Source: Flavobacterium cauense R2A-7 (GTDB taxonomy: Bacteria; Bacteroidota; Bacteroidia; Flavobacteriales; Flavobacteriaceae). From it: a stretch of DNA of 64,000 nt. Shown here one piece after another: positions 26,825 through 40,967 of the stretch. The stretch spans positions 372,001 through 436,000 of the forward strand of contig NZ_AVBI01000019.1 of the NCBI RefSeq assembly GCF_000498475.1, read 5' to 3'. Numbering within the stretch: position 1 is the first letter of the stretch; each line of letters begins with the position of its first letter. The notes below the pieces were generated by a model. The model was not told the DNA's origin. It did no database searches and saw only the letters and a program-made list of their open reading frames with translations. The position numbers were made by a program, and so were the translations under genes.

Positions 26825-26842
26825 ATCACTAAATTTAGTGAT
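26825..26842. promoter_or_regulatory. Perfect 18-bp palindrome upstream of hsdR
   Basis: ATCACTAAATTTAGTGAT is a perfect 18-bp inverted repeat with no central spacer. It lies 18-68 nt before the possible hsdR starts and contains TAAATTTA, similar to a -7 box. It is a plausible repressor operator for the R-M operon. No gene for a controller protein is adjacent. Confidence 0.6.
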
Positions 26843-26892
26843 TGTGTAAGTGTTTTTTTATGGTTATGTTTGGAAAAACAAATCAGCCCCTA

Positions 26893-29712
26893 ATGACTAA
26901 CCAAAACCCCGAACAAATTGCCCGCGATGCTATCGACAAGCAATTGCTTGCGTGTGGGTGGATTATACAGAATAAAACACAAATTAATTTAGCTGCGGGA
27001 ACTGGAGTAGCGGTGCGCGAGTATCAAACCAATGCCGGACCTGCGGATTATGTTTTGTTTGTGCAGCAACAACCTGTAGGTATTATTGAGGCGAAACGTC
27101 CTGAAATGGGGCAAACACTTTCTGTAGTCGAAGAACAAGGGGAAGAATATGCGAAAGCAAAATTAAAATTCCTAAATAATGACCCGTTGCCTTATGTGTA
27201 TGTAAGCACGGGAGCCATTACCAAATTCACTAATTATAACGACCCAAAACCGCGTTCGAGAGAGGTCTTTAGCTTTCACCGGCCGGAAACCTTATTGCGT
27301 TGGGTTAAAGAAGGGAAAACTTTACGAGGCCGTTTATTGGATTTACCGGAATTGCCTCTTGCTAATTTGCGCGACTGCCAAATTGATGCCATCAACAATC
27401 TGGAAAAATCTTTTAAAAACTTTAAACCTAAAGCCCTGGTGCAAATGGCTACGGGTTCGGGGAAGACTTTTACCGCAATTACCTTTATTTACCGCTTGCT
27501 GAAATTTGCTAAAGCAAAACGCGTTTTATTTTTAGTAGATACTAAAAACTTGGGAGAACAGGCAGAGCAGGAATTCATGGTATACCAGCCTACAGACAGT
27601 AATTCCCTGTTTCCGCAACTGCATAATGTAACCCGTCTGCGCAGCAGTTTTATTCCCGATGACAGTGAAGTATACATCAGTACCATTCAGCGGATGTATT
27701 CTATCCTGAAAGGAACGGAACTGGAAGAAAGTGCCGAGGAATTAAACCCTTACGAATTTGTGCAGACCAAAGAACCAATGCCTGTGGTTTACAACGAACG
27801 GGTTCCTGTTGAGTTTTTTGATTTTATCGTAATTGACGAATGCCACCGTAGTATTTACAATTTGTGGCGTCAGGTGCTGGATTATTTTGATGCATTTCAG
27901 GTAGGCTTAACGGCCACACCGGATAACCGTACTTTCTCCTATTTTAACGGAAATGTGGTATCGGATTACGGGTATGAAAAAGCAGTGATTGACGGCGTGT
28001 TAGTGCCTTATAACGTGTTTACCATAGAAACCAAAATTACCAAAGAAGGTGCTGCCATAGCTTTGGGTGAAAAAGTTGATAAACGCGAACGGTTAACAAG
28101 ACGCAAGTTTTGGGAAACCGTTGATGAAGATATCGCCTATAGTGGCAAACAATTAGACAAAGACATTGTTAATCCCAGTACAATACGAAGTATTATCAGA
28201 GCCACCAGAGATAATTTACCCGTAATGTTTCCCGACCGCTTTGATAAAGACGGTCATTTTGAAGTGCCTAAAATGCTGATTTTCGCCAAAAGTGACAGTC
28301 ATGCGGAAGACATTATTGAGATAGTACGGGAAGAATTTGGAGAAGCAAACAAGTTCTGTAGAAAAATCACCTATCAGTCTAAAGAAGACCCGAAGAGTAT
28401 TTTAAGTGAGTTTCGTAATAGTTATTACCCACGCATTGCCGTTACGGTAGATATGATTGCCACCGGTACCGATATCCGACCGTTGGAGGTTTTACTGTTT
28501 ATGCGGGATGTAAAAAGTAAAAGTTATTATGAGCAAATGAAAGGAAGAGGTACCCGTACCTGTACTTTAGACGAATTGCGAAAAACCGGAACCCCTACAG
28601 CAAAATACAACAAAGACCATTTTGTAATAATCGATGCCATTGGCGTAGAGAGTTCCCAAAAAACCGACAGTCGTCCTTTGGAAAAACAACCGGGTATGTC
28701 TTTAAAAGACGTCCTGCAAACGGTAGCCATGGGGAACCGTTCGGAAGAGATACTGACTACTTTAGCCAACCGTCTGATTCGTTTAGACCGGCAGATAAAC
28801 CCTAAAGAACGGGAGAAATTCAGTGCGTTAGCCAACGGACTGGAAGTAAAACAAGTGGTGCAAAAGCTCTTGAATGCTTACGACCCTGATACAATAGAAC
28901 AAATCAGAACATCGGTTTACGAACAGCATAAAGGTGAAGCTCCTACCGTATTGGAAGCTAAAATTGAGGAACAACACCGTGCATTAATTGACAAGGCCAT
29001 TACGGAGTTTCATAATCCTGAACTTCGCAATTATATTGTTGATGTACGCAAGAAGTATGACCAGATTATCGACACGTTAAACATAGACGAAGTACATAAA
29101 ATTGGCTGGGTGGCCGATGTAAACGAGCAAGCCCAAAGCAGTGTTGCCGCCTTTGAACAATGGGTGCAGGAAAACAAAGACGAAGCCTTAGCCCTGCAAA
29201 TTTTTTATGGGGAACCTTACCGCAGAAGGGAGCTCACCTATAAAATGATACGCGATTTGTATGATAAACTGATATTGGAACAACCTACCCTACAACCTGC
29301 CAAACTTTGGGATGCTTACGCTACTATGGAAGATGAACAGGACAAAGGTAAATTTGTACAGCGCATGCCAAGAAGCGAAAAACCGAAACAGGATCTGGTT
29401 TTACTGGTATCGGTATTGCGTAAAGCGTTGCGTATTGATGAATATTTGAACGGGTATGACAAAACCGTAGACAGGAACTTCCAGGATTGGGCTTTTAAAA
29501 AGCAAGCCGGAGCGAATATAAAATTTACCGAAGAGCAAATGCAATGGCTCCGCATGATTAAGGATTATATTGCCAACTCTTTCCATTTGGATACCGAAGA
29601 CTTTGAGCTGAACCCGTTTAATGCCCATGGTGGTTTAGGGAAATTTTATCAACTGTTTGGTAACCAATATATAGAGATTATTGATGAATTAAATGAAGTT
29701 TTAGCGGCGTAA
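26893..29712 (+). CDS. hsdR: Type I restriction endonuclease subunit R
   Basis: A 939-residue HsdR with start at MTNQNPEQIARDAIDKQL, the usual family opening. ATGs at 26860 and 26866 would add up to 11 residues. The N-terminal PD-(D/E)xK nuclease reads GPADYVLFV...PVGIIEAKRPE. The helicase motor has MATGSGKT (about residue 185), IDECHRSIY (D315), GLTATPD and QMKGRGTR. The C-terminal part is helical. It resembles EcoEI-type R subunits. The protein cleaves DNA far from the recognition site after translocation. It is the first gene of an operon that also contains a toxin-antitoxin pair, hsdS, a Roc-COR-TIR gene and hsdM. Confidence 0.93.
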   Translation: MTNQNPEQIARDAIDKQLLACGWIIQNKTQINLAAGTGVAVREYQTNAGPADYVLFVQQQPVGIIEAKRPEMGQTLSVVEEQGEEYAKAKLKFLNNDPLPYVYVSTGAITKFTNYNDPKPRSREVFSFHRPETLLRWVKEGKTLRGRLLDLPELPLANLRDCQIDAINNLEKSFKNFKPKALVQMATGSGKTFTAITFIYRLLKFAKAKRVLFLVDTKNLGEQAEQEFMVYQPTDSNSLFPQLHNVTRLRSSFIPDDSEVYISTIQRMYSILKGTELEESAEELNPYEFVQTKEPMPVVYNERVPVEFFDFIVIDECHRSIYNLWRQVLDYFDAFQVGLTATPDNRTFSYFNGNVVSDYGYEKAVIDGVLVPYNVFTIETKITKEGAAIALGEKVDKRERLTRRKFWETVDEDIAYSGKQLDKDIVNPSTIRSIIRATRDNLPVMFPDRFDKDGHFEVPKMLIFAKSDSHAEDIIEIVREEFGEANKFCRKITYQSKEDPKSILSEFRNSYYPRIAVTVDMIATGTDIRPLEVLLFMRDVKSKSYYEQMKGRGTRTCTLDELRKTGTPTAKYNKDHFVIIDAIGVESSQKTDSRPLEKQPGMSLKDVLQTVAMGNRSEEILTTLANRLIRLDRQINPKEREKFSALANGLEVKQVVQKLLNAYDPDTIEQIRTSVYEQHKGEAPTVLEAKIEEQHRALIDKAITEFHNPELRNYIVDVRKKYDQIIDTLNIDEVHKIGWVADVNEQAQSSVAAFEQWVQENKDEALALQIFYGEPYRRRELTYKMIRDLYDKLILEQPTLQPAKLWDAYATMEDEQDKGKFVQRMPRSEKPKQDLVLLVSVLRKALRIDEYLNGYDKTVDRNFQDWAFKKQAGANIKFTEEQMQWLRMIKDYIANSFHLDTEDFELNPFNAHGGLGKFYQLFGNQYIEIIDELNEVLAA

Positions 29713-29744: not shown

Positions 29745-30416
29745 ATGTTCGAAAATAAATTAGAATTAGGAAATGGAATTTTTACTACGCAGGAAATTGC
29801 GCAGATTCTTCGTTTGCCTTACCACAAAGTGAGAACATGGATTACCAAATATTGGGATGGTGATTTAGGTAAACATTATGAACAAAACTACTCTTGGTCT
29901 GTTGAAAATTCAAAAGCCGTTGGTTTTCATACTTTGATTGAGTTTTATGTTATGATGCAATTTGCAGAAGCAGGAGTAAAAACCAAAGAAGTCTTAAAAG
30001 CCCATAAAGAGCTTTCTATTCTTTATAACACTAACTTCCCTTTTGCTAAAAAAGAGGTTTTAGAGAATATTAAAACAGATAAGCTAAAAGTATATCTAAA
30101 AATGAATGGTGATACCATTTCCTTAGACGGCAGTAAGCAATTAAACTTAGAACTAATTTCTATGTTTTTTCACAATTTGGATTTTGACAATGAATTATTA
30201 GCTTCTCGTTTCTGGCCTTTAGGGAAAAAACACAAAATTGTTTGTGATCCGCACCATAAATTTGGACAACCTGTAATTAGTGGCACTAACATTCAATCTG
30301 AGGTTATTTATAAAATGTATCAATCTAATGAACCCGTAAAATTTATTGCTGCCTTATATGAAATTTCAGAAAAAGAAGTAAAAGATGCTATATTGTTTCA
30401 TCTAAATGCAGCGTAA
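29745..30416 (+). CDS. VapB45-like antitoxin with DUF433 domain
   Basis: A 223-residue protein. The N-terminus (IFTTQEIAQILRLPYHKVRTWITKY) looks like a MerR-type helix-turn-helix. Residues about 160-220 form a DUF433 domain (VISGTNIQSEVIYKMYQ...YEISEKEVKDAIL). The pairing with a PIN-like toxin 2 nt downstream matches the VapB45-VapC45 organisation known from mycobacteria. It lies 32 nt after hsdR and probably represses its own operon, as antitoxins of this kind do. Confidence 0.7.
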   Translation: MFENKLELGNGIFTTQEIAQILRLPYHKVRTWITKYWDGDLGKHYEQNYSWSVENSKAVGFHTLIEFYVMMQFAEAGVKTKEVLKAHKELSILYNTNFPFAKKEVLENIKTDKLKVYLKMNGDTISLDGSKQLNLELISMFFHNLDFDNELLASRFWPLGKKHKIVCDPHHKFGQPVISGTNIQSEVIYKMYQSNEPVKFIAALYEISEKEVKDAILFHLNAA

Positions 30417-30418
30417 AT

Positions 30419-30838
30419 ATGAGAAAATATAAAATTTATATTGATGAAAATTTACCGAAGCAATTAGCACATGGGTTAAATACATTACAACAGCCACAAA
30501 ATTTACGTGATGGATTAGAAATTGAAGTTCTATCAATTTCTGATGAATTTGGGAAGGGTGCTCTAGACGAAGACTGGATTCCTAAAGTTGGCGCTGAAAA
30601 CGGCATCGTAATAACGCAAGACTCAAGAATACAATCACAAAAACATCAAAGGGAATTATACTTGAAAAGTGGTGTTGGAATTCTGTTCTTAAACCCACCT
30701 TCTAAAAATGGCTTTTCGTATTGGGATATGGTAAAAAAGCTGATTGAAGAATGGGACAATATTAAAACCATTGTAAAGAAAAACAAAACCCCTTTCGCAT
30801 TTCGAGGTTCTTCAAGTAGAAAGTTTGAAAAAATGTAG
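30419..30838 (+). CDS. VapC45-like PIN-fold toxin
   Basis: A 139-residue protein with the PIN-like acidic pattern. IYIDENLPKQL holds the first Asp-Glu pair and IVITQDSRI a second Asp. It has the size and order of VapC45-type nucleases. A basic C-terminal tail follows. The start is 2 nt after the antitoxin stop. The RNase activity is inferred from the family and has not been seen in this sequence. Confidence 0.6.
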   Translation: MRKYKIYIDENLPKQLAHGLNTLQQPQNLRDGLEIEVLSISDEFGKGALDEDWIPKVGAENGIVITQDSRIQSQKHQRELYLKSGVGILFLNPPSKNGFSYWDMVKKLIEEWDNIKTIVKKNKTPFAFRGSSSRKFEKM

Positions 30839-30859: not shown

Positions 30860-32068
30860 ATGAAAAATAAGATACCGCCTAAAAACTGGCAAACAAAAAA
30901 ACTTGGTGATGTAGCAAATTATCTAAATGGTAGAGCTTTTAAGCCAACAGAATGGGAAGAAAGTGGTAAGCCTATAATTAGAATTCAAAATCTAAATAAA
31001 AAAACAGCTCCTTATAATTATACAAATCAAATTTTTGAAGATCGATACAAAGTTGCTAAAGGTGATTTGCTTTTTGCATGGTCTGCTTCATTGGGTGCTT
31101 ATATTTGGAAAGAACAAGATGCATGGTTGAATCAGCACATTTTTAAAGTTGAACCTAAAGATTCTGTAAATAAAATGTTTTTATTTTATTTACTAGAAAA
31201 ACTTGTCTTGGAATTATATTCTAAAGCCCACGGTTCAGGGATGGTTCATATTACAAAAGGAAAATTTGAGGCTACTGAAATTTCAATCCCAGATCTCGCA
31301 ACCCAACAAGCCATCGTCTCCAAAATAGAAGAACTCTTTAGCGAGTTAGACAAAGGCATTGAAGATTTAAAAACCGCACAGGAGCAGTTAAAAGTGTACC
31401 GCCAGAGTGTGTTGAAGCATGCTTTTGAGGGGAAACTTACTAATGAGAATGTTAAGGATAGGGTGTTGCCTGAGGGGTGGATAGTAGTTAATTTAAAAGA
31501 AGTTTGTGAGGTTAAAAGAGGAAAATCAAAACATAGGCCTAGAAATGCATCCGAATTATATGGTGGTAATTATCCTTTTATTCAAACCGGTGATATTAGA
31601 AATGCAAATGGTGGGTATATAAAAAAGTTTTCTCAAACTTATAGTGAGTTTGGTTTAGCCCAAAGTAAACTTTGGCCAAAAGGAACATTATGTATTACTA
31701 TTGCTGCAAATATTGGAGAAACAGCCATTTTAGATTTTGATGCATGTTTTCCTGATAGTGTAGTTGGTTTACTTTCAAAAGAGGAAGTGCTTTCTAACAA
31801 ATACCTAAATTATTTTTTCATTTCATTTAAACAAAAATTGGAAGAATTAGCTCCAGCAACTGCTCAGAAAAATATTAATGTAAATATTTTAGAAAGCATA
31901 AAAATTCCCATCCCTTTGATTGAAGAACAACACATAATCGTTCAAGAAATAGAAAGTCGTTTAAGTGTTGCAGATAAAATGGAAGAAAGTATACAGGAGA
32001 GTTTGCTTAAATCGGAGGCTTTGAGACAGAGTATTTTGAAGAAGGCGTTTAGTGGGGAGTTGGTTTAA
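30860..32068 (+). CDS. hsdS: Type I restriction specificity subunit S
   Basis: A 402-residue specificity protein with two target recognition domains. TRD1 spans about residues 5-160 (WQTKKLGDVANYLNGRAFKP...). A helical spacer follows, TQQAIVSKIEELFSELDKGIEDLKTAQ. TRD2 spans about residues 205-360 and is followed by a second helical spacer, IIVQEIESRLSVADKMEE. The AT-rich coding sequence differs from the spacers, as is usual for variable TRDs. It starts 21 nt after the toxin. It dictates both methylation and cleavage specificity; the recognised sequence cannot be predicted. Confidence 0.9.
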   Translation: MKNKIPPKNWQTKKLGDVANYLNGRAFKPTEWEESGKPIIRIQNLNKKTAPYNYTNQIFEDRYKVAKGDLLFAWSASLGAYIWKEQDAWLNQHIFKVEPKDSVNKMFLFYLLEKLVLELYSKAHGSGMVHITKGKFEATEISIPDLATQQAIVSKIEELFSELDKGIEDLKTAQEQLKVYRQSVLKHAFEGKLTNENVKDRVLPEGWIVVNLKEVCEVKRGKSKHRPRNASELYGGNYPFIQTGDIRNANGGYIKKFSQTYSEFGLAQSKLWPKGTLCITIAANIGETAILDFDACFPDSVVGLLSKEEVLSNKYLNYFFISFKQKLEELAPATAQKNINVNILESIKIPIPLIEEQHIIVQEIESRLSVADKMEESIQESLLKSEALRQSILKKAFSGELV

Positions 32069-32079
32069 AAAAATAAGTT

Positions 32080-35000
32080 ATGAATGTTTTTAATTCATCT
32101 AATGGTTATTGTAATGTGTGGGTTGTTGGACAACCTGGCATAGGGAAAACATTTCTGGTTGAAAATCTATTTGAGCAGTTATATCGCATAAATAATAATA
32201 ATCCCAATGATATTGAATTTGATGCATTAATTTCCGAACAAGAGCATAATGTCAAAATTCGGATAAAAGAAATACGTTCTTTTGAAGATCCTATTTTTAA
32301 TAGTCCTATTCAACATAATGATATTCCGTCAGTTTTTCTAATAGTAGGAAATTTATATTACTATGAAAATATTTCTTATGAGAAAGATTTTATAAAAAAA
32401 ATTGAAAATAGATATCCCGATGCTTTAATTTATTTAATAAGAATAAATTCATCATTAAATATTTCAAAAGATATTCAAATAAAAAAAGAAGGAATAATTT
32501 CCACTTTACCTAAAATTGGCAAAAATTTAAGAGAAATATTTTTTATTAATAGTTATGGTCAGGAGGATTTTTTTATTTTTCAAAATATTTTGAAAAACTC
32601 AATAATTAATTTTTGTACGGATAGACTAAAACATGTAAAAAAGAAAATTAATGATTCCATTAAATTTGGAGATGAATATCTTGATATTGGAAAATGTAAT
32701 TTAACCAGCTTATATGAAGTTCCTGAATTATTCCAATGTAATCATATAAAAACTCTAATTATCAGTAATGAATGGGGTGAATTTAGGAATGGAAAATGGC
32801 ACAAAGCAGGAAGTGAAAATAGAGGTGGAAAAAATAATTTTGGAATTATTCCTGCTGAAATAATAAAACTTAAAAACTTAAATACTTTTATTGCTGGGGG
32901 TGATTGGAATACTGATGGAATAAAGGGTACAGGTTGGAGAATTAAAGAGCTAGGTTTTTTAACAAAATTAACTAAACTTAAATACATAAATTTTAGCAAT
33001 AATCGAGTAGATAAAATACCAAGTTTATCTCAACTTTTAGATTTAGAGGTTTTACACTTAAATAATAATTGTATAACTTCAATTGCACTAAATGGAGAAT
33101 TTAAATTACTCCGCGAATTATACCTTAGTAACAATTCTTTAAAAACAGTTTCATTTTTTATTAAGATAAAAATTCCAAATATTTCGACAATAGATTTACA
33201 TGGAAATGAAATAACTGATTTAACGCCTATTAAAAGTCTAATTGAAAAAAAAGATATTGTAAATTCTAAATGGGAACAAAACACTATTAGTATTGCTAAA
33301 AATCCTTTGCAAAAACCACCATTGGAAATTGTCAATATTGGAAAAATGGCAGTTTTAAAATATTTTGAAGATATCAATAAAGGTAAGCATTATATTAATA
33401 ATGAAGTTAAATTAATCTTGGTTGGAAATAGTGAAGTAGGTAAAACAACTTTAGCAAAATATTTAGATGATGAGAACGATTTAAATGTAAAACATTGTTC
33501 AACACATTGGCTCGAAGAACGAAAAGTCACAAGTAAGCATTTACTTGATGAAATCAAACAAAAATGTACAATAAACTTGTTTGATTTTGGAGGACATGAT
33601 TTTTTTCATGATACTCATCACTTATTTTTTAGTTCAAATACTATTTACATTTTACTTTGGGATGTATATAGTAATTGTTTAAATAAAAGAACTGTTATTC
33701 AAGAAGTTTCAAAAGGAATTGAAAAAGAAGTAGAATTTCAAGATTTCCCATTAAAATACTGGTTAGATTCGATCAAATATTATGTTCAAGATGATAAAAT
33801 CAAAATTTTTGATTTTCAAATCGATAATATAAATGAATTTAATAGTGATGTGTTAGTTGTCCAAAATAAAGTAGTTAATCAAGATGAAATAGTTTTTCTA
33901 AATTCTGAAGAATTAAAAAAAGAATATCCTTTCATTTATGATTTTATCAATATTTCAGTAATTGAAAAAAGAAGAACAGATTATTTTGATGTCTTATTAT
34001 CTGAAATGTTGAACAACATGCAAATTGTTGGAGCGAAGTTACCAAATTATTATGGAAAAGTTAAAGATTCAATTTCTAAATATCAAGGCGATGCAATAAT
34101 TAATTTAAAAGAATTTGTAATTTTTTGTAATTCAATAAAAGGTGTTAATATAGATATTGAACAAGCAAAAATTTTAGCAAATTATTTAAATCAAATTGGT
34201 TTGATTATGCACTATCCAAATTCAATTTATAATGATTTGATTTTTATTGATAAAAAATGGGTACTTAACAAGATTTATAAAATTTTAGGAGGGCTTTACG
34301 AAAAAGGAGGTGAGTTTGATTTAAATTATGTAAAAGAAATTTTTGAAAACTACTTAACTGAGGATGAGGTAAATAATATATTAAGCTTAATGAAAGGTTT
34401 TAATATCATCTTTCAAAATCCTTACAAAAAGACTTTTATTGCACCACTTTATCTTCCTAAAAAACCTGATGAATTGTTGAATCTTTTTATTCAAAATGAT
34501 AAAAAACCATATAGGAAATTTTTATATAAAGGTTTTATTCATAAAAATGTTATTCTGCAAATCTTCAGAGAATATGGAGAATATGTAATTGGAGAAAAAA
34601 AAGGATCAGAAATATACTATTATTATTGGAAAAACGGATTGATTATTAAGGATCCTGTATCAAACGAAATAGTAAAAATTATTTTTAATTTAGGAGATGA
34701 TACCGGTAATGCATCTATTGATTTGTTCAAATTGAACAACGATTTTGATACAAATTTTGTTGACCAAATCATCGATACAGTAAACAAAATAAATTACAAA
34801 TATGATGTAGAAGAAATGATTACAATTGACGGGGAGGATTATATACCTATAAAAGTAATTCATGAAAACGAAGATAAAAATAATTGGACTTTTTTCTATA
34901 ATGAAAAATATTATAAACTAACAAAATTTAAAAAGTATTTACATAAACCTGATGTAATGAAAAAGATATTTATTTCTTACTCTAAACAAGATTTAAAACT

Positions 35001-35508
35001 TGTAAACAAATTTATTGAACACTTAGCTTCTTTACAATTAGACGGAAAAGTCTCACATTGGTATTGTAGTGAACTAGAAGCCGGATCTGAGTGGAATCAA
35101 GAAATTCAGAAAAATTTTGATGAATCCGATATAATTTGCTTCATGATTAGCCCAAATTTTATGAAGACAAAATATATTCATGAGCATGAAATTGCAAAAG
35201 CATTTGAAAAAAAAGCTACTAACCAGGATTTAAGAATCGTCCCAATAATTTTAGATTTTTGTAGATGGACGACAGAAAATAATAACTTAGGTAAGTATAC
35301 TGCTTTGCCATATACAGCTAAACCAGTTGTTGATTTTGATAATCAAAATATGGCTTGGTATATCATCGAAGAATGTATAAGAATAATGATTGATAAAAAT
35401 TTAGAGCCTGAAGGGGATGATTTTTATCAAAATAATTTGCCTACTGATGTTTTAAAGATTTATGAGAGAATTGTCGGCGGAAAAGTAGACAAAAACACAA
35501 CTATTTAA
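32080..35508 (+). CDS. LRR-Roc-COR-TIR protein inside the R-M operon
   Basis: A 1142-residue multidomain protein. Residues 17-24 (GQPGIGKT) open a first P-loop region. Leucine-rich repeats span about residues 200-430. A second P-loop, GNSEVGKTT (G449), begins a Roc GTPase with DFGGHD as G3. A COR dimerisation segment follows (LANYLNQIGLI...DKKWVLNKIYKILGGLYEKGG). A C-terminal TIR domain runs from about residue 960, with KKIFISYSKQD and an HEHEI segment where E1037 is a candidate catalytic Glu. The region is much more AT-rich than hsdM. It lies 11 nt after hsdS and 8 nt before hsdM. NAD cleavage is inferred from the family, not shown. The protein has no signal peptide. Confidence 0.85.
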   Translation: MNVFNSSNGYCNVWVVGQPGIGKTFLVENLFEQLYRINNNNPNDIEFDALISEQEHNVKIRIKEIRSFEDPIFNSPIQHNDIPSVFLIVGNLYYYENISYEKDFIKKIENRYPDALIYLIRINSSLNISKDIQIKKEGIISTLPKIGKNLREIFFINSYGQEDFFIFQNILKNSIINFCTDRLKHVKKKINDSIKFGDEYLDIGKCNLTSLYEVPELFQCNHIKTLIISNEWGEFRNGKWHKAGSENRGGKNNFGIIPAEIIKLKNLNTFIAGGDWNTDGIKGTGWRIKELGFLTKLTKLKYINFSNNRVDKIPSLSQLLDLEVLHLNNNCITSIALNGEFKLLRELYLSNNSLKTVSFFIKIKIPNISTIDLHGNEITDLTPIKSLIEKKDIVNSKWEQNTISIAKNPLQKPPLEIVNIGKMAVLKYFEDINKGKHYINNEVKLILVGNSEVGKTTLAKYLDDENDLNVKHCSTHWLEERKVTSKHLLDEIKQKCTINLFDFGGHDFFHDTHHLFFSSNTIYILLWDVYSNCLNKRTVIQEVSKGIEKEVEFQDFPLKYWLDSIKYYVQDDKIKIFDFQIDNINEFNSDVLVVQNKVVNQDEIVFLNSEELKKEYPFIYDFINISVIEKRRTDYFDVLLSEMLNNMQIVGAKLPNYYGKVKDSISKYQGDAIINLKEFVIFCNSIKGVNIDIEQAKILANYLNQIGLIMHYPNSIYNDLIFIDKKWVLNKIYKILGGLYEKGGEFDLNYVKEIFENYLTEDEVNNILSLMKGFNIIFQNPYKKTFIAPLYLPKKPDELLNLFIQNDKKPYRKFLYKGFIHKNVILQIFREYGEYVIGEKKGSEIYYYYWKNGLIIKDPVSNEIVKIIFNLGDDTGNASIDLFKLNNDFDTNFVDQIIDTVNKINYKYDVEEMITIDGEDYIPIKVIHENEDKNNWTFFYNEKYYKLTKFKKYLHKPDVMKKIFISYSKQDLKLVNKFIEHLASLQLDGKVSHWYCSELEAGSEWNQEIQKNFDESDIICFMISPNFMKTKYIHEHEIAKAFEKKATNQDLRIVPIILDFCRWTTENNNLGKYTALPYTAKPVVDFDNQNMAWYIIEECIRIMIDKNLEPEGDDFYQNNLPTDVLKIYERIVGGKVDKNTTI

Positions 35509-35516
35509 TAAAATAA

Positions 35517-36995
35517 ATGAGCAATCACAATTCCACAATAGTAAGCAAAGTATGGGCCTTCTGCCAAACCCTAAGAGACGATGGCGTAGGCTATGGCGAT
35601 TACTTAGAACAGTTAACCTATTTGCTGTTTTTAAAAATGGCCTATGAATACAGCTTACCCCCACACAACCGCAATTTAAATATCCCTAAGGAGTTTAACT
35701 GGGAAAGTTTGCTAACCAAAAGCGGTGACGAACTGGAAGTACATTACAGCAAAATGCTGCGTGAGTTAGGAAACAACAAAGGCATTTTAGGGCAGATTTT
35801 TACCAAAAGCCAAAACAAAATACAAGACCCCGCCAAGTTGTTTAAGCTAATCAAAATGATTGATGCGGAGCAATGGGTAATGATGGGCGTTAAAGACAAA
35901 GGCGACATCTACGAAGGCTTGTTAGAAAAGAATGCTGAAGACACCAAAAGCGGTGCCGGGCAGTACTTTACCCCTCGCCCACTAATTAAAGCCATGGTAG
36001 CCTGTATCAACCCGGAACCCATGAAAACCATTGGTGACCCGGCGTGCGGCACGGGAGGTTTCTTTTTAGCTGCTTATGACTGGTTAACCGAAAAACATAA
36101 ATTAGACAAAGAACAAAAGCAGTTTTTAAAGTACCATACTTTTAAAGGCAATGAGATTGTGGCAAGTACCCGCCGATTGGCTTTGATGAACCTGTTTTTG
36201 CATAACATTGGGGATATTGACTCGGACAATTTTATCTCGCCTAACGATGCGTTAGTAGCAGATAGTGGCGACCGTTTTGATTATATCCTTGCCAATCCGC
36301 CGTTTGGTAAAAAGAGCAGCATGACTATTACCAATGAAGCCGGAGAGCAAGAGCGCGAAGATTTGACGTATAACCGTCAGGACTTTTGGGTAACGACCAG
36401 TAACAAGCAGTTGAATTTCTTACAGCATATTAAAACTTTACTGAAAGAAACCGGAAAGGCTGCTGTGGTATTGCCCGATAATGTATTGTTTGAAGGTGGT
36501 GCCGGGGAATCGGTTCGTAAGAAGTTACTGGAAACTACAGATTTGCATACGATTTTGCGCTTACCTACGGGTATTTTTTATGCCAATGGCGTTAAGGCAA
36601 ACGTATTGTTCTTTGACGGCAAACCTGCCAGTAAAAACCCTTGGACTAAAGAGGTTTGGGTGTATGATTACCGTACCAATATTCATCATACTTTAAAGAA
36701 AAACCCATTAAAATACAGCGACCTTCAGGATTTCATTGATTTATACAACGAAGGGAGTATTGCCAAACGTAAGGAAACGTATTCAGAAGATAACCCGGAC
36801 GGACGCTGGCGCAAGTTCTCTTACGAGGATATTATTGCAAGGGATAAAACGAGTTTAGACATCAGCTGGATTAAGGATAAGTCGTTAGCCGACTTGGACA
36901 ACCTGCCAGACCCGGATGAATTGGCAGAGGAAATTATTGAGAATATTGAGGCTGGTTTGGAGAGTTTCAGAGCGGTTTTAAATGGGTTGAAGTAA
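35517..36995 (+). CDS. hsdM: Type I DNA methyltransferase subunit M
   Basis: A 492-residue adenine N6-methyltransferase. The N-terminal helical domain starts VSKVWAFCQTLRDDGVGYGDYLEQLTYLLFLKM. SAM motif I is DPACGTGGFFLAAYDW, and the catalytic motif IV is NPPFGKKS. It follows the TIR gene by 8 nt. It must pair with the hsdS product to protect the host DNA. Expression through the intervening large gene would link methylation to the TIR protein. Confidence 0.96.
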   Translation: MSNHNSTIVSKVWAFCQTLRDDGVGYGDYLEQLTYLLFLKMAYEYSLPPHNRNLNIPKEFNWESLLTKSGDELEVHYSKMLRELGNNKGILGQIFTKSQNKIQDPAKLFKLIKMIDAEQWVMMGVKDKGDIYEGLLEKNAEDTKSGAGQYFTPRPLIKAMVACINPEPMKTIGDPACGTGGFFLAAYDWLTEKHKLDKEQKQFLKYHTFKGNEIVASTRRLALMNLFLHNIGDIDSDNFISPNDALVADSGDRFDYILANPPFGKKSSMTITNEAGEQEREDLTYNRQDFWVTTSNKQLNFLQHIKTLLKETGKAAVVLPDNVLFEGGAGESVRKKLLETTDLHTILRLPTGIFYANGVKANVLFFDGKPASKNPWTKEVWVYDYRTNIHHTLKKNPLKYSDLQDFIDLYNEGSIAKRKETYSEDNPDGRWRKFSYEDIIARDKTSLDISWIKDKSLADLDNLPDPDELAEEIIENIEAGLESFRAVLNGLK

Positions 36996-37343
36996 ATGGA
37001 ATTAAGAGGCATCATTTTATACGACATTCAATTAAACGGAGATTTAAATGGTGTTTATACGAATAACCTAACTCCGAATGCAGAATTGTTCACAGAAACA
37101 GCCCATTTTTTACGCGATGAATCTTTTGGTGATTTTATCAACGGACTAATGCTTTATGAAGCTTTTTATTTCGATTTTGAGTCTGGTCGGGTTAATGCCA
37201 TTTTAGAATTTAGAATTGTAAACGGACTTATTACTGCCAGATGGTGGCGAGAAGGAGAAGATAGAATTGAAGACAATCTTTTGTTTACAGGTGAAGGGTA
37301 TCGTATGAATCATCATCAAATTGTGATTGCGTATACTAATTGA
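36996..37343 (+). CDS. Hypothetical protein at the end of the R-M operon
   Basis: A 115-residue protein with start immediately after the hsdM stop, with no gap, which suggests coupling. The sequence opens MELRGIILYDIQLNGDLNGVYTN and has a WWREGEDRIEDNLLFTGEGYR segment. I do not recognise a family. Possible roles include an accessory to the R-M system, but nothing in the sequence shows this. Confidence 0.7.
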   Translation: MELRGIILYDIQLNGDLNGVYTNNLTPNAELFTETAHFLRDESFGDFINGLMLYEAFYFDFESGRVNAILEFRIVNGLITARWWREGEDRIEDNLLFTGEGYRMNHHQIVIAYTN

Positions 37344-40550: not shown

Positions 40551-40967
40551 TTATACCAATATGGCGGTTAGGCTGATGGCGGCGGTGATGGATTTTGAAA
40601 TCGGGCAGGTTGCTTTGGCTTCGGCGGCGATTTTCTGAAAGGCTTCGTTGGTGATTCCGGGTATTTTGGCTTTTAAATCGAGATGGCTTTCGGTAATGGC
40701 ACCGTCTTCGAAGGTTACTTTGGCTTCTACGTTGAGGTCGTCCGGGGTAAAGCCTGCATCACCTAACAGGAAGCTTAACTTCATGGCGAAACACCCGGAA
40801 TGTGCCGCGGCTATGAGTTCTTCGGGATTGGTACCAACACCTTCCTCAAATCGGGACTTGAAAGAATATTGGGTATTGTTTAAGGTGGTGCTTTGCGTGG
40901 TAAGGGTTCCTTTTCCTTCCATACCACTGCCCATCCAATGGGCACTTGCTCTTCTGTTGAATTTCAT
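40551..40967 (-). CDS. osmC: OsmC-family peroxiredoxin
   Basis: A 138-residue hydroperoxide-reducing protein. It opens with FNRRASAHWMGSGMEGKGTLTTQ. The two reactive cysteines lie in AAHSGCFAMKL and ATCPISKSI, as in OsmC. The length is normal. It stands alone on the minus strand. Confidence 0.93.
   Translation of the reverse strand: MKFNRRASAHWMGSGMEGKGTLTTQSTTLNNTQYSFKSRFEEGVGTNPEELIAAAHSGCFAMKLSFLLGDAGFTPDDLNVEAKVTFEDGAITESHLDLKAKIPGITNEAFQKIAAEAKATCPISKSITAAISLTAILV

Follow-up and report, generated by a model that had tools for sequence, protein, structure and literature searches.

Bacterial proteins in which leucine-rich repeats (LRRs), an AP-GTPase (Roc) domain and a COR domain precede a variable C-terminal effector, with TIR among at least 24 such domains, were described by Burroughs and Aravind, and AP-GTPase (Roco) proteins were presented there as prokaryotic counter-invader systems, a prediction (PMC8195603; this and the other articles are cited from passages of their text). 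A GTP-dependent dimer change is reported for the Roco protein of Chlorobium tepidum, CtRoco, and bacterial Roco proteins serve as structural models for LRRK2 (PMC6337361); we found no agreed physiological role for bacterial Roco proteins in the literature passages. Separately, accessory and defence genes are described within type I restriction-modification (R-M) operons. The rlo and mlo open reading frames (ORFs) of Campylobacter jejuni lie inside a type I hsd operon, mlo in the hsdS-hsdM interval (Miller 2005, cited in PMC5183652); DarTG2 lies between hsdS and hsdR, a junction called a potential recombination hotspot for defence systems (PMC12255303); and tgvAB, positioned like rloF between hsdR and hsdS, protects against Tevenvirinae independently of HsdR restriction activity (PMC11411939). 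The anticodon nuclease PrrC has orthologues that are invariably linked to type Ic R-M systems (PMC2610378). Here we analyse a gene at which these lines of work meet: in a 64,000-nt stretch of the Flavobacterium cauense R2A-7 genome (contig NZ_AVBI01000019.1; the whole stretch is hereafter the window), an 1142-residue LRR-Roc-COR-TIR protein that we call Roco-TIR (P0001) is encoded at 32080-35508 on the (+) strand, between hsdS and hsdM of a type I R-M operon.

Roco-TIR has its LRR, Roc, COR and TIR parts in common with the published AP-GTPase class, with N-terminal repeats, a C-terminal effector and the Roc-COR tandem that marks the Roco family. It is also related to the Parkinson's protein LRRK2. 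It differs by an extra N-terminal P-loop domain and by its placement in a type I operon, neither of which is mentioned in the cited passages of PMC8195603. With CtRoco (PDB 6hlu, 8r4b), a distant relative, it shares the LRR-Roc-COR core (phmmer 2.1e-41). Like rlo/mlo, TgvAB and DarTG2 it belongs with genes of accessory or defence function that are housed in a type I operon, and mlo occupies the same interval, but the experimental cases, TgvAB and DarTG2, sit at other junctions and no Roco-TIR is named for any of the three in the passages at hand. PrrC, the EcoprrI guard, is likewise an effector encoded within a type I operon, whereas Roco-TIR genes are mostly unlinked. The TIR domain is similar in fold and Glu position to ThsB and the TIR NADases (Thoeris, SPARTA, SARM1), but here it forms the C-terminal part of a Roco protein; we know of no TIR domain in CtRoco. 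The match to a ThsB-type TIR stands alone, as no ThsA partner was among the matches listed for ten window genes. In the open literature, judged mostly from listings and without subscription papers or most preprints, we came across neither a Roco-TIR reported within a type I operon nor a bacterial Roco protein that had been tested against phage. Conflict proteins of the Roco-TIR kind and defence genes embedded in R-M operons have each been published; their combination did not come up in this search.

We propose, with a probability of roughly 0.7, that Roco-TIR is an autonomous anti-phage effector gene, horizontally moved, that occupies a variable cargo interval between hsdS and hsdM. The proposal starts from the domains of the protein, its position in the operon, the turnover of interval content from relative to relative and the finding of family members outside R-M loci. 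Because related bacteria keep other, unrelated genes in this slot, several of them anti-virus systems, we regard Roco-TIR as probably an exchangeable additional defence rather than a protein dedicated to guarding the restriction enzyme.

The hsdS-hsdM interval in related operons

With the window HsdM as starting query, 17 of 199 genus genomes matched, its own included, and the 16 others were fetched; their HsdM proteins are 56-90% identical to that of the window. Counting the interval as occupied if a same-strand ORF of at least 80 aa lay between hsdS and hsdM, we found it occupied in 14 of these 16 relatives, 13 with other cargo and one (L046; L and G numbers are our handles for loci and genomes) with a transposase only, and empty in L057 and L058. 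L046 is the nearest locus (HsdM 90%), and it keeps the arrangement hsdR-DUF433-PIN-hsdS-x-hsdM with an IS200-type transposase gene as x, while L051, with the same backbone as the window, holds Septu (PtuA 7.1e-100, PtuB 3.0e-21). Septu also fills the interval of L061 (PtuA 1.3e-173, PtuB 4.6e-75); PDC-M62A/B and GmrSD are found in L047 and, as judged from agreeing lengths and initial residues, in L048. The remaining content is diverse: RhuM-Fic (L049), QueC, a nucleoside deoxyribosyltransferase-type and an HD-domain protein, among others (L052), a SocA/MqsA-type protein (L054), a PD-(D/E)XK-type protein (L055), patatin and metallo-beta-lactamase-fold proteins (L056), a deaminase-type protein (L059), and DUF4062 and Schlafen-type proteins (L060). 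Several occupants have no Pfam family, and the cargo of L053 and, its transposase apart, of L050 was not scanned.

Across the phylum, 228 genomes were searched, 21 besides F. cauense had an HsdM match, and 19 were fetched (all but G719 and G739). Three were dropped from the interval count, L099 and L101 because the hsdM ORF was not recognised and L102 because hsdS was not; the interval was occupied in 9 of the remaining 16 loci and empty in 7, five of the latter from one genus. A complete QatABCD system lies between hsdS and hsdM in L084, from another family (L084:3352-8258; 5.2e-175, 3.3e-50, 4.4e-139 and 2.6e-74). When Roco-TIR was compared by tblastn with all 35 loci (16 genus, 19 phylum), only L090 and L091 matched, both after hsdM. 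Roco-TIR has the positional traits of R-M-embedded cargo: it lies within an hsd operon, in the operon's orientation, at a site where relatives exchange what they carry.

IS200-type Y1 transposase genes stand in the interval of four loci (L046:5632-6093, L048:5891-6352, L050:9982-10443 and L085:12581-13042) and encode proteins 51-88% identical to the L046 one; another Y1 gene (L025:166-630) precedes the Roco-TIR gene of L025. Such transposases may help to move cargo. The hsdM of L056 is broken into two ORFs (L056:13616-15109).

Domains of the Roco-TIR protein

The earlier note on this DNA, made from its letters and ORFs, had described an 1142-residue LRR-Roc-COR-TIR protein between hsdS and hsdM with gaps of 11 and 8 nt on one strand, and both the ORF and the Pfam matches bear this out. 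The ORF has an ATG start and no internal stop, and the LRR_4, Roc, COR-A and TIR_2 scores all exceed the Pfam cut-offs. The LRRs span approximately residues 285-389 (32932-33246; LRR_4 9.8e-13), where solved LRR proteins also match. They are followed by a Roc GTPase domain at residues 444-545 (33409-33714; 2.2e-15), with a P-loop GNSEVGKT at 449 and DFGG at 502, and by a COR-A domain at residues 655-792 (34042-34455; 2.3e-18), after which there is probably a COR-B domain.

The TIR domain, at residues 963-1065 (34966-35274), matches Pfam TIR_2 (2.3e-13) and the PADLOC ThsB model (2.3e-22). Its E1037 (codon 35188-35190) is invariant in 9 of 9 aligned proteins, whereas the neighbouring E1035 is not; it sits in helix 81-93 of a TIR domain model and aligns by eye with a Glu in the TIRs of L122-L124. 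We take this position to be that of the catalytic Glu of TIR NADases, and the two profile matches together with the invariance of E1037 agree with the earlier description of a TIR-type effector with a probable catalytic Glu. Among structural neighbours of the TIR model, the TIRs of SPARTA, Roq1 and SARM1 rank first (Z 8.7-8.9), with AbTir at 8.3, all of which are NADases. Foldseek with the same model gave seven matches at E <=0.001 (TM ~0.34-0.40), two of them non-TIR.

Ahead of the LRRs, approximately residues 1-190 (32080-32649) form a GTPase-like P-loop domain with GQPGIGKT at 17. This domain is common to the window, L005, L007 and L019, and G17, G22, K23 and I62-K63-E64 are invariant. A profile of the four proteins has its two best matches, which cover the P-loop alone, in adenylate kinase 9 (2.6e-4) and EngA (3.1e-4), and resembles small GTPases weakly (septin 1.2e-3, LRRK2 Roc 5.6e-3). 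Given the weakness of this resemblance, it is only possible that Roco-TIR carries two GTPase-like domains.

Occurrence and genomic context of the family

Roco-TIR is rare. All counts are lower bounds that include its own genome unless stated, and the profile counts in the genus, phylum and order scored two candidates per genome among the matches listed. The protein was found in at least 3 of 60 relatives (E up to 1e-20), at least 8 of 299 genus genomes (1e-60), at least 2 of 395 phylum genomes and at least 1 of 200 genomes of the Poseidonibacter phylum, this one being the Poseidonibacter genome itself. An order-wide profile search of 395 genomes had its own genome alone among the matches listed, and a contig search with a single-sequence query gave one locus. 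No relative was found in viral contigs or phage records; 43 plasmid records showed partial matches, all below 60% identity and none reaching 80% coverage, and a degenerate DNA pattern for a TIR motif matched none of 61 loci.

The Poseidonibacter homolog (L007) is 50-51% identical to Roco-TIR over nearly its full length, and its presence in another phylum argues that the gene moves between lineages. Among the 11 rows of a tree, the window protein has that of L019 (G444, 67%) as its sister, followed by L007 and L020 in an open fork. Type I linkage marks three rows (window, L020 and L023) that are scattered in this tree, and the sisters of linked rows are unlinked (L019 for the window, L024 for L023). 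The N-terminus has been exchanged, for a region of ~400 aa with no Pfam match in L020 and with extra LRRs in L021-L024, and L006 is a remote member at 23% identity. The gene of G444 is broken into three ORFs (L019:7917-11362); those of G006 (43% identical) and G484 (31%, TIR part 59%) are intact. The family is mobile, with its members in G444, the nearest kin, and in L007 both lying outside hsd loci.

No hsd gene was seen at L005, L006, L007, L019, L021, L022 or L024 in the 12-20 kb read, or in the longer stretch read at L021. The other linked loci place the gene differently. L020 (G639) reads AbiEii-hsdS-[AAA ATPase + 298 aa]-hsdM-RocoTIR, the AAA/298-aa pair resembling the L061 Septu pair by position and length only, and hsdR was not recognised in the DNA of L020 or L027. 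L023/L026 (G602) reads hsdM-hsdS-477 aa-202 aa-193 aa-397 aa-DUF6088-332 aa-hsdR-RocoTIR; the 193-aa protein is a TIR_2 protein (1.6e-11), the 397-aa protein has a sub-threshold TIR_2 match (1.7e-5), and the 477- and 202-aa proteins are SIR2- and TIR-like by eye alone. Further TIR genes surround the relatives in L007, L021 and L023, and L021 has three TIR genes inside ~6 kb.

Roco genes also adjoin type I genes in L090 and L091, two genomes of one genus (G780 and G868) found via hsdM. L090:15336-18014 encodes, 5 nt after hsdM, an 892-aa LRR-Roc-COR-A-COR-B-TIR protein that is akin to the solved CtRoco (phmmer 2.2e-140) and ~30% identical to the L116 protein. In L091 (15455-17395) a Roco gene directly follows hsdM and encodes LRRs and Roc before the contig ends, ahead of any TIR. 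When the whole family was searched, 9 of 71 genomes had Roco matches, and none of 11 further loci showed an hsd gene, four of their contigs being only 5-9 kb; L118, which is among the 11, may be the remainder of the L091 gene. L116, which we take to be the CtRoco locus, has no hsd gene in 19.9 kb. R-M linkage of Roco proteins is thus an occasional, repeated state.

Some neighbourhoods merit separate description. The neighbours of the Poseidonibacter Roco-TIR gene (L007:331-4315) encode HET-domain, SLOG-patatin and ThsB_TIR proteins and may form a Thoeris-like variant whose effector is a patatin. Genes for 138-aa proteins that begin with similar residues and look OsmC-like by eye are found downstream of the R-M locus in the window (40551-40967) and downstream of Roco-TIR in L019 (11885-12301), possibly a shared insertion neighbourhood. 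The hsdR of L091 is broken into two ORFs (L091:7095-9890).

Operon layout and neighbouring genes

The full order on the (+) strand is hsdR-DUF433-PIN-hsdS-RocoTIR-hsdM. The earlier note had given hsdR-hsdS-TIR-hsdM, of which the part hsdS-TIR-hsdM stands, but a DUF433/PIN pair lies between hsdR and hsdS. hsdR (26842-29712; ResIII 4.4e-40, EcoEI_R_C 4.5e-35) is listed as 956 aa from a TTG, and its true start is probably slightly downstream. It is followed by genes for a DUF433 protein (29745-30416; 4.1e-09) and a PIN_10 protein (30419-30838; 1.6e-20), the probable antitoxin and toxin of one VapBC-like pair, which is kept at the same hsdR-hsdS place in L046 and L051. hsdS (30860-32068) encodes two target-recognition domains (Methylase_S 1.9e-56, 2 stretches), and hsdM (35517-36995) matches N6_Mtase (1.9e-68). 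HsdM retains DPACGTGG and NPPF, HsdR retains a PADY...EAK stretch and a DECH box, and by these motifs the R-M genes of the window look intact. Directly after hsdM is a small ORF of 115 aa (36996-37343) whose product has no Pfam, PADLOC or NCBIfam match; relatives likewise follow hsdM in L047 and L048. Promoter scans of the locus were at chance level, and co-transcription is therefore suggested by gene spacing alone.

Discussion

If Roco-TIR is an autonomous anti-phage effector, its LRRs, perhaps with the N-terminal P-loop domain, would sense an infection cue, a GTP-dependent rearrangement of the Roc-COR dimer would bring the C-terminal TIR domains together, and these would cleave NAD+ or make a nucleotide signal, so that the cell is stopped or killed. 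NAD+ cleavage by the TIR domain and abortive infection are predictions from the protein sequence. Once embedded, the gene would be transcribed and transferred together with the R-M genes, and phages that escape restriction would face a second layer; Roco-TIR would not be required to sense the R-M enzyme.

Several observations weigh against this reading. Linkage to type I genes recurs, in 3 of 10 Roco-TIR loci including the window, itself selected because it is linked, and in 2 of 9 without it (3 of 11 if L025, left out as a 5-kb contig, is counted in), and under a purely neutral cargo model such recurrence needs explaining by defence clustering. As a control, 13 ThsB_TIR loci were taken from 76 genomes in the same genus, two of the loci being short (5.8 and 13.5 kb); 1 of the 13 was type I-linked, and the enrichment of Roco-TIR at type I loci over this control was not significant (one-sided Fisher p = 0.20, window counted). 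PADLOC matched ten of ten cargo proteins from four loci, but the ten had been picked for their likeness to known systems, and many others have no known family. The Roco-TIR gene has a GC content of 25.1% (16.4 at third codon positions, GC3) and hsdS one of 33.3% (23.8), beside 42.3% (48.5) for hsdM and 41.6% (40.6) for hsdR; this is weak evidence of transfer because the loci of nine Roco-TIR relatives are AT-rich too (28-37% GC). The presence of HsdS in carrier genomes, which bears on the guard discussed below, was judged by one Pfam model, PF01420. The TIR-only model is of moderate confidence (mean pLDDT, predicted local distance difference test, 58.8), a full-length model from a two-row alignment reached 35.6, and 2-deoxyribosyltransferases (Z 7.8) and Ras-like folds (Z 7.5) come close behind the TIRs; as these non-TIR folds score little lower, Pfam and PADLOC bear most of the weight of the TIR call. 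Finally, against several phages the embedded tgvAB genes alone gave 10- to 100-fold less protection than did the complete cluster (PMC11411939), and embedded genes may accordingly be helped by their host operon.

The control set also held a type I operon with a ThsB_TIR-type gene as TIR cargo (L160:5279-17003), whose hsdM, hsdS and hsdR are related to those of L026/L023 (77%, 51% and 85%).

The rival that survives best, though we consider it unlikely, is a PrrC-like guard: Roco-TIR would be held silent by HsdRMS and would kill the cell once a phage anti-restriction protein disables HsdRMS. Tight embedding (the gaps of 11 and 8 nt), type I linkage also in L020, L090 and L091 (after hsdM) and in L023 (after hsdR), the presence of HsdS in 17 of 20 carrier genomes and the PrrC precedent (PMC2610378, PMC12707154) speak for it. 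However, the linked Hsd families differ (HsdM 58% in L020, 26-29% in L026), as do the positions; in seven of the ten Roco-TIR loci the DNA read shows no hsd gene, and operons of the same family hold other cargo or none. HsdS was undetected in the other 3 of the 20 carriers (G444, G006 and G484), each 99-100% complete, which disfavours an obligate guard. The invariable type I linkage of PrrC is accordingly not seen here, with three of ten loci linked and three carriers free of detectable HsdS. Some family members may sense R-M, with which the HsdS survey is compatible. The earlier note had suggested that the protein specifically guards this R-M system, and had set against that idea absence from close relatives with no co-occurrence elsewhere. 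The gene is indeed absent from L046, L051, L057 and L058, but co-occurrence is not lacking, as a Roco gene adjoins type I genes in G639, G602, G780 and G868. We set the guard aside as the main explanation on the interval content of relatives and the carriers without detectable HsdS.

A broader form, in which hsdS-hsdM is a 'plug-in' site that switches cargo on when R-M is disabled or engaged, with Roco-TIR as a GTP-driven NADase guard reading the Hsd state, strikes us as quite unlikely; if it were true, Roco-TIR would be a TIR counterpart of PrrC and would give a bacterial Roco protein its first defined trigger. There is a slim chance that the gene landed between hsdS and hsdM by accident and has no current role. 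It is absent from this interval in the 16 genus and 19 phylum loci, the L090 and L091 matches lying after hsdM, and its closest kin, in G444, is broken. Yet the ORF is intact over 1142 codons with its P-loops and TIR Glu conserved, both neighbour genes are intact, and recognised defence systems occupy the same interval in L047, L051, L061 and L084. The earlier note had held that an isolated case would argue for accidental insertion, an argument that loses force because the ORF is intact and linkage to type I genes recurs. That Roco-TIR is a non-defence Roco, a regulator or housekeeping GTPase controlling hsdM expression or assembly, is very improbable: its position directly before hsdM and the description of ROC domain function as poorly understood (PMC4104024) would suit such a role, but it carries a TIR effector domain, its relatives in L007, L021 and L023 lie among other TIR genes, and no Roco-TIR stands at this place in the other hsdM operons read.

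We therefore return to Roco-TIR as a probable swappable anti-phage gene in a cargo interval. Its place in a slot that relatives fill with Qat or Septu suggests a concrete role for it, phage defence, and the hsdS-hsdM slot of this type I family would offer a route to further defence genes.

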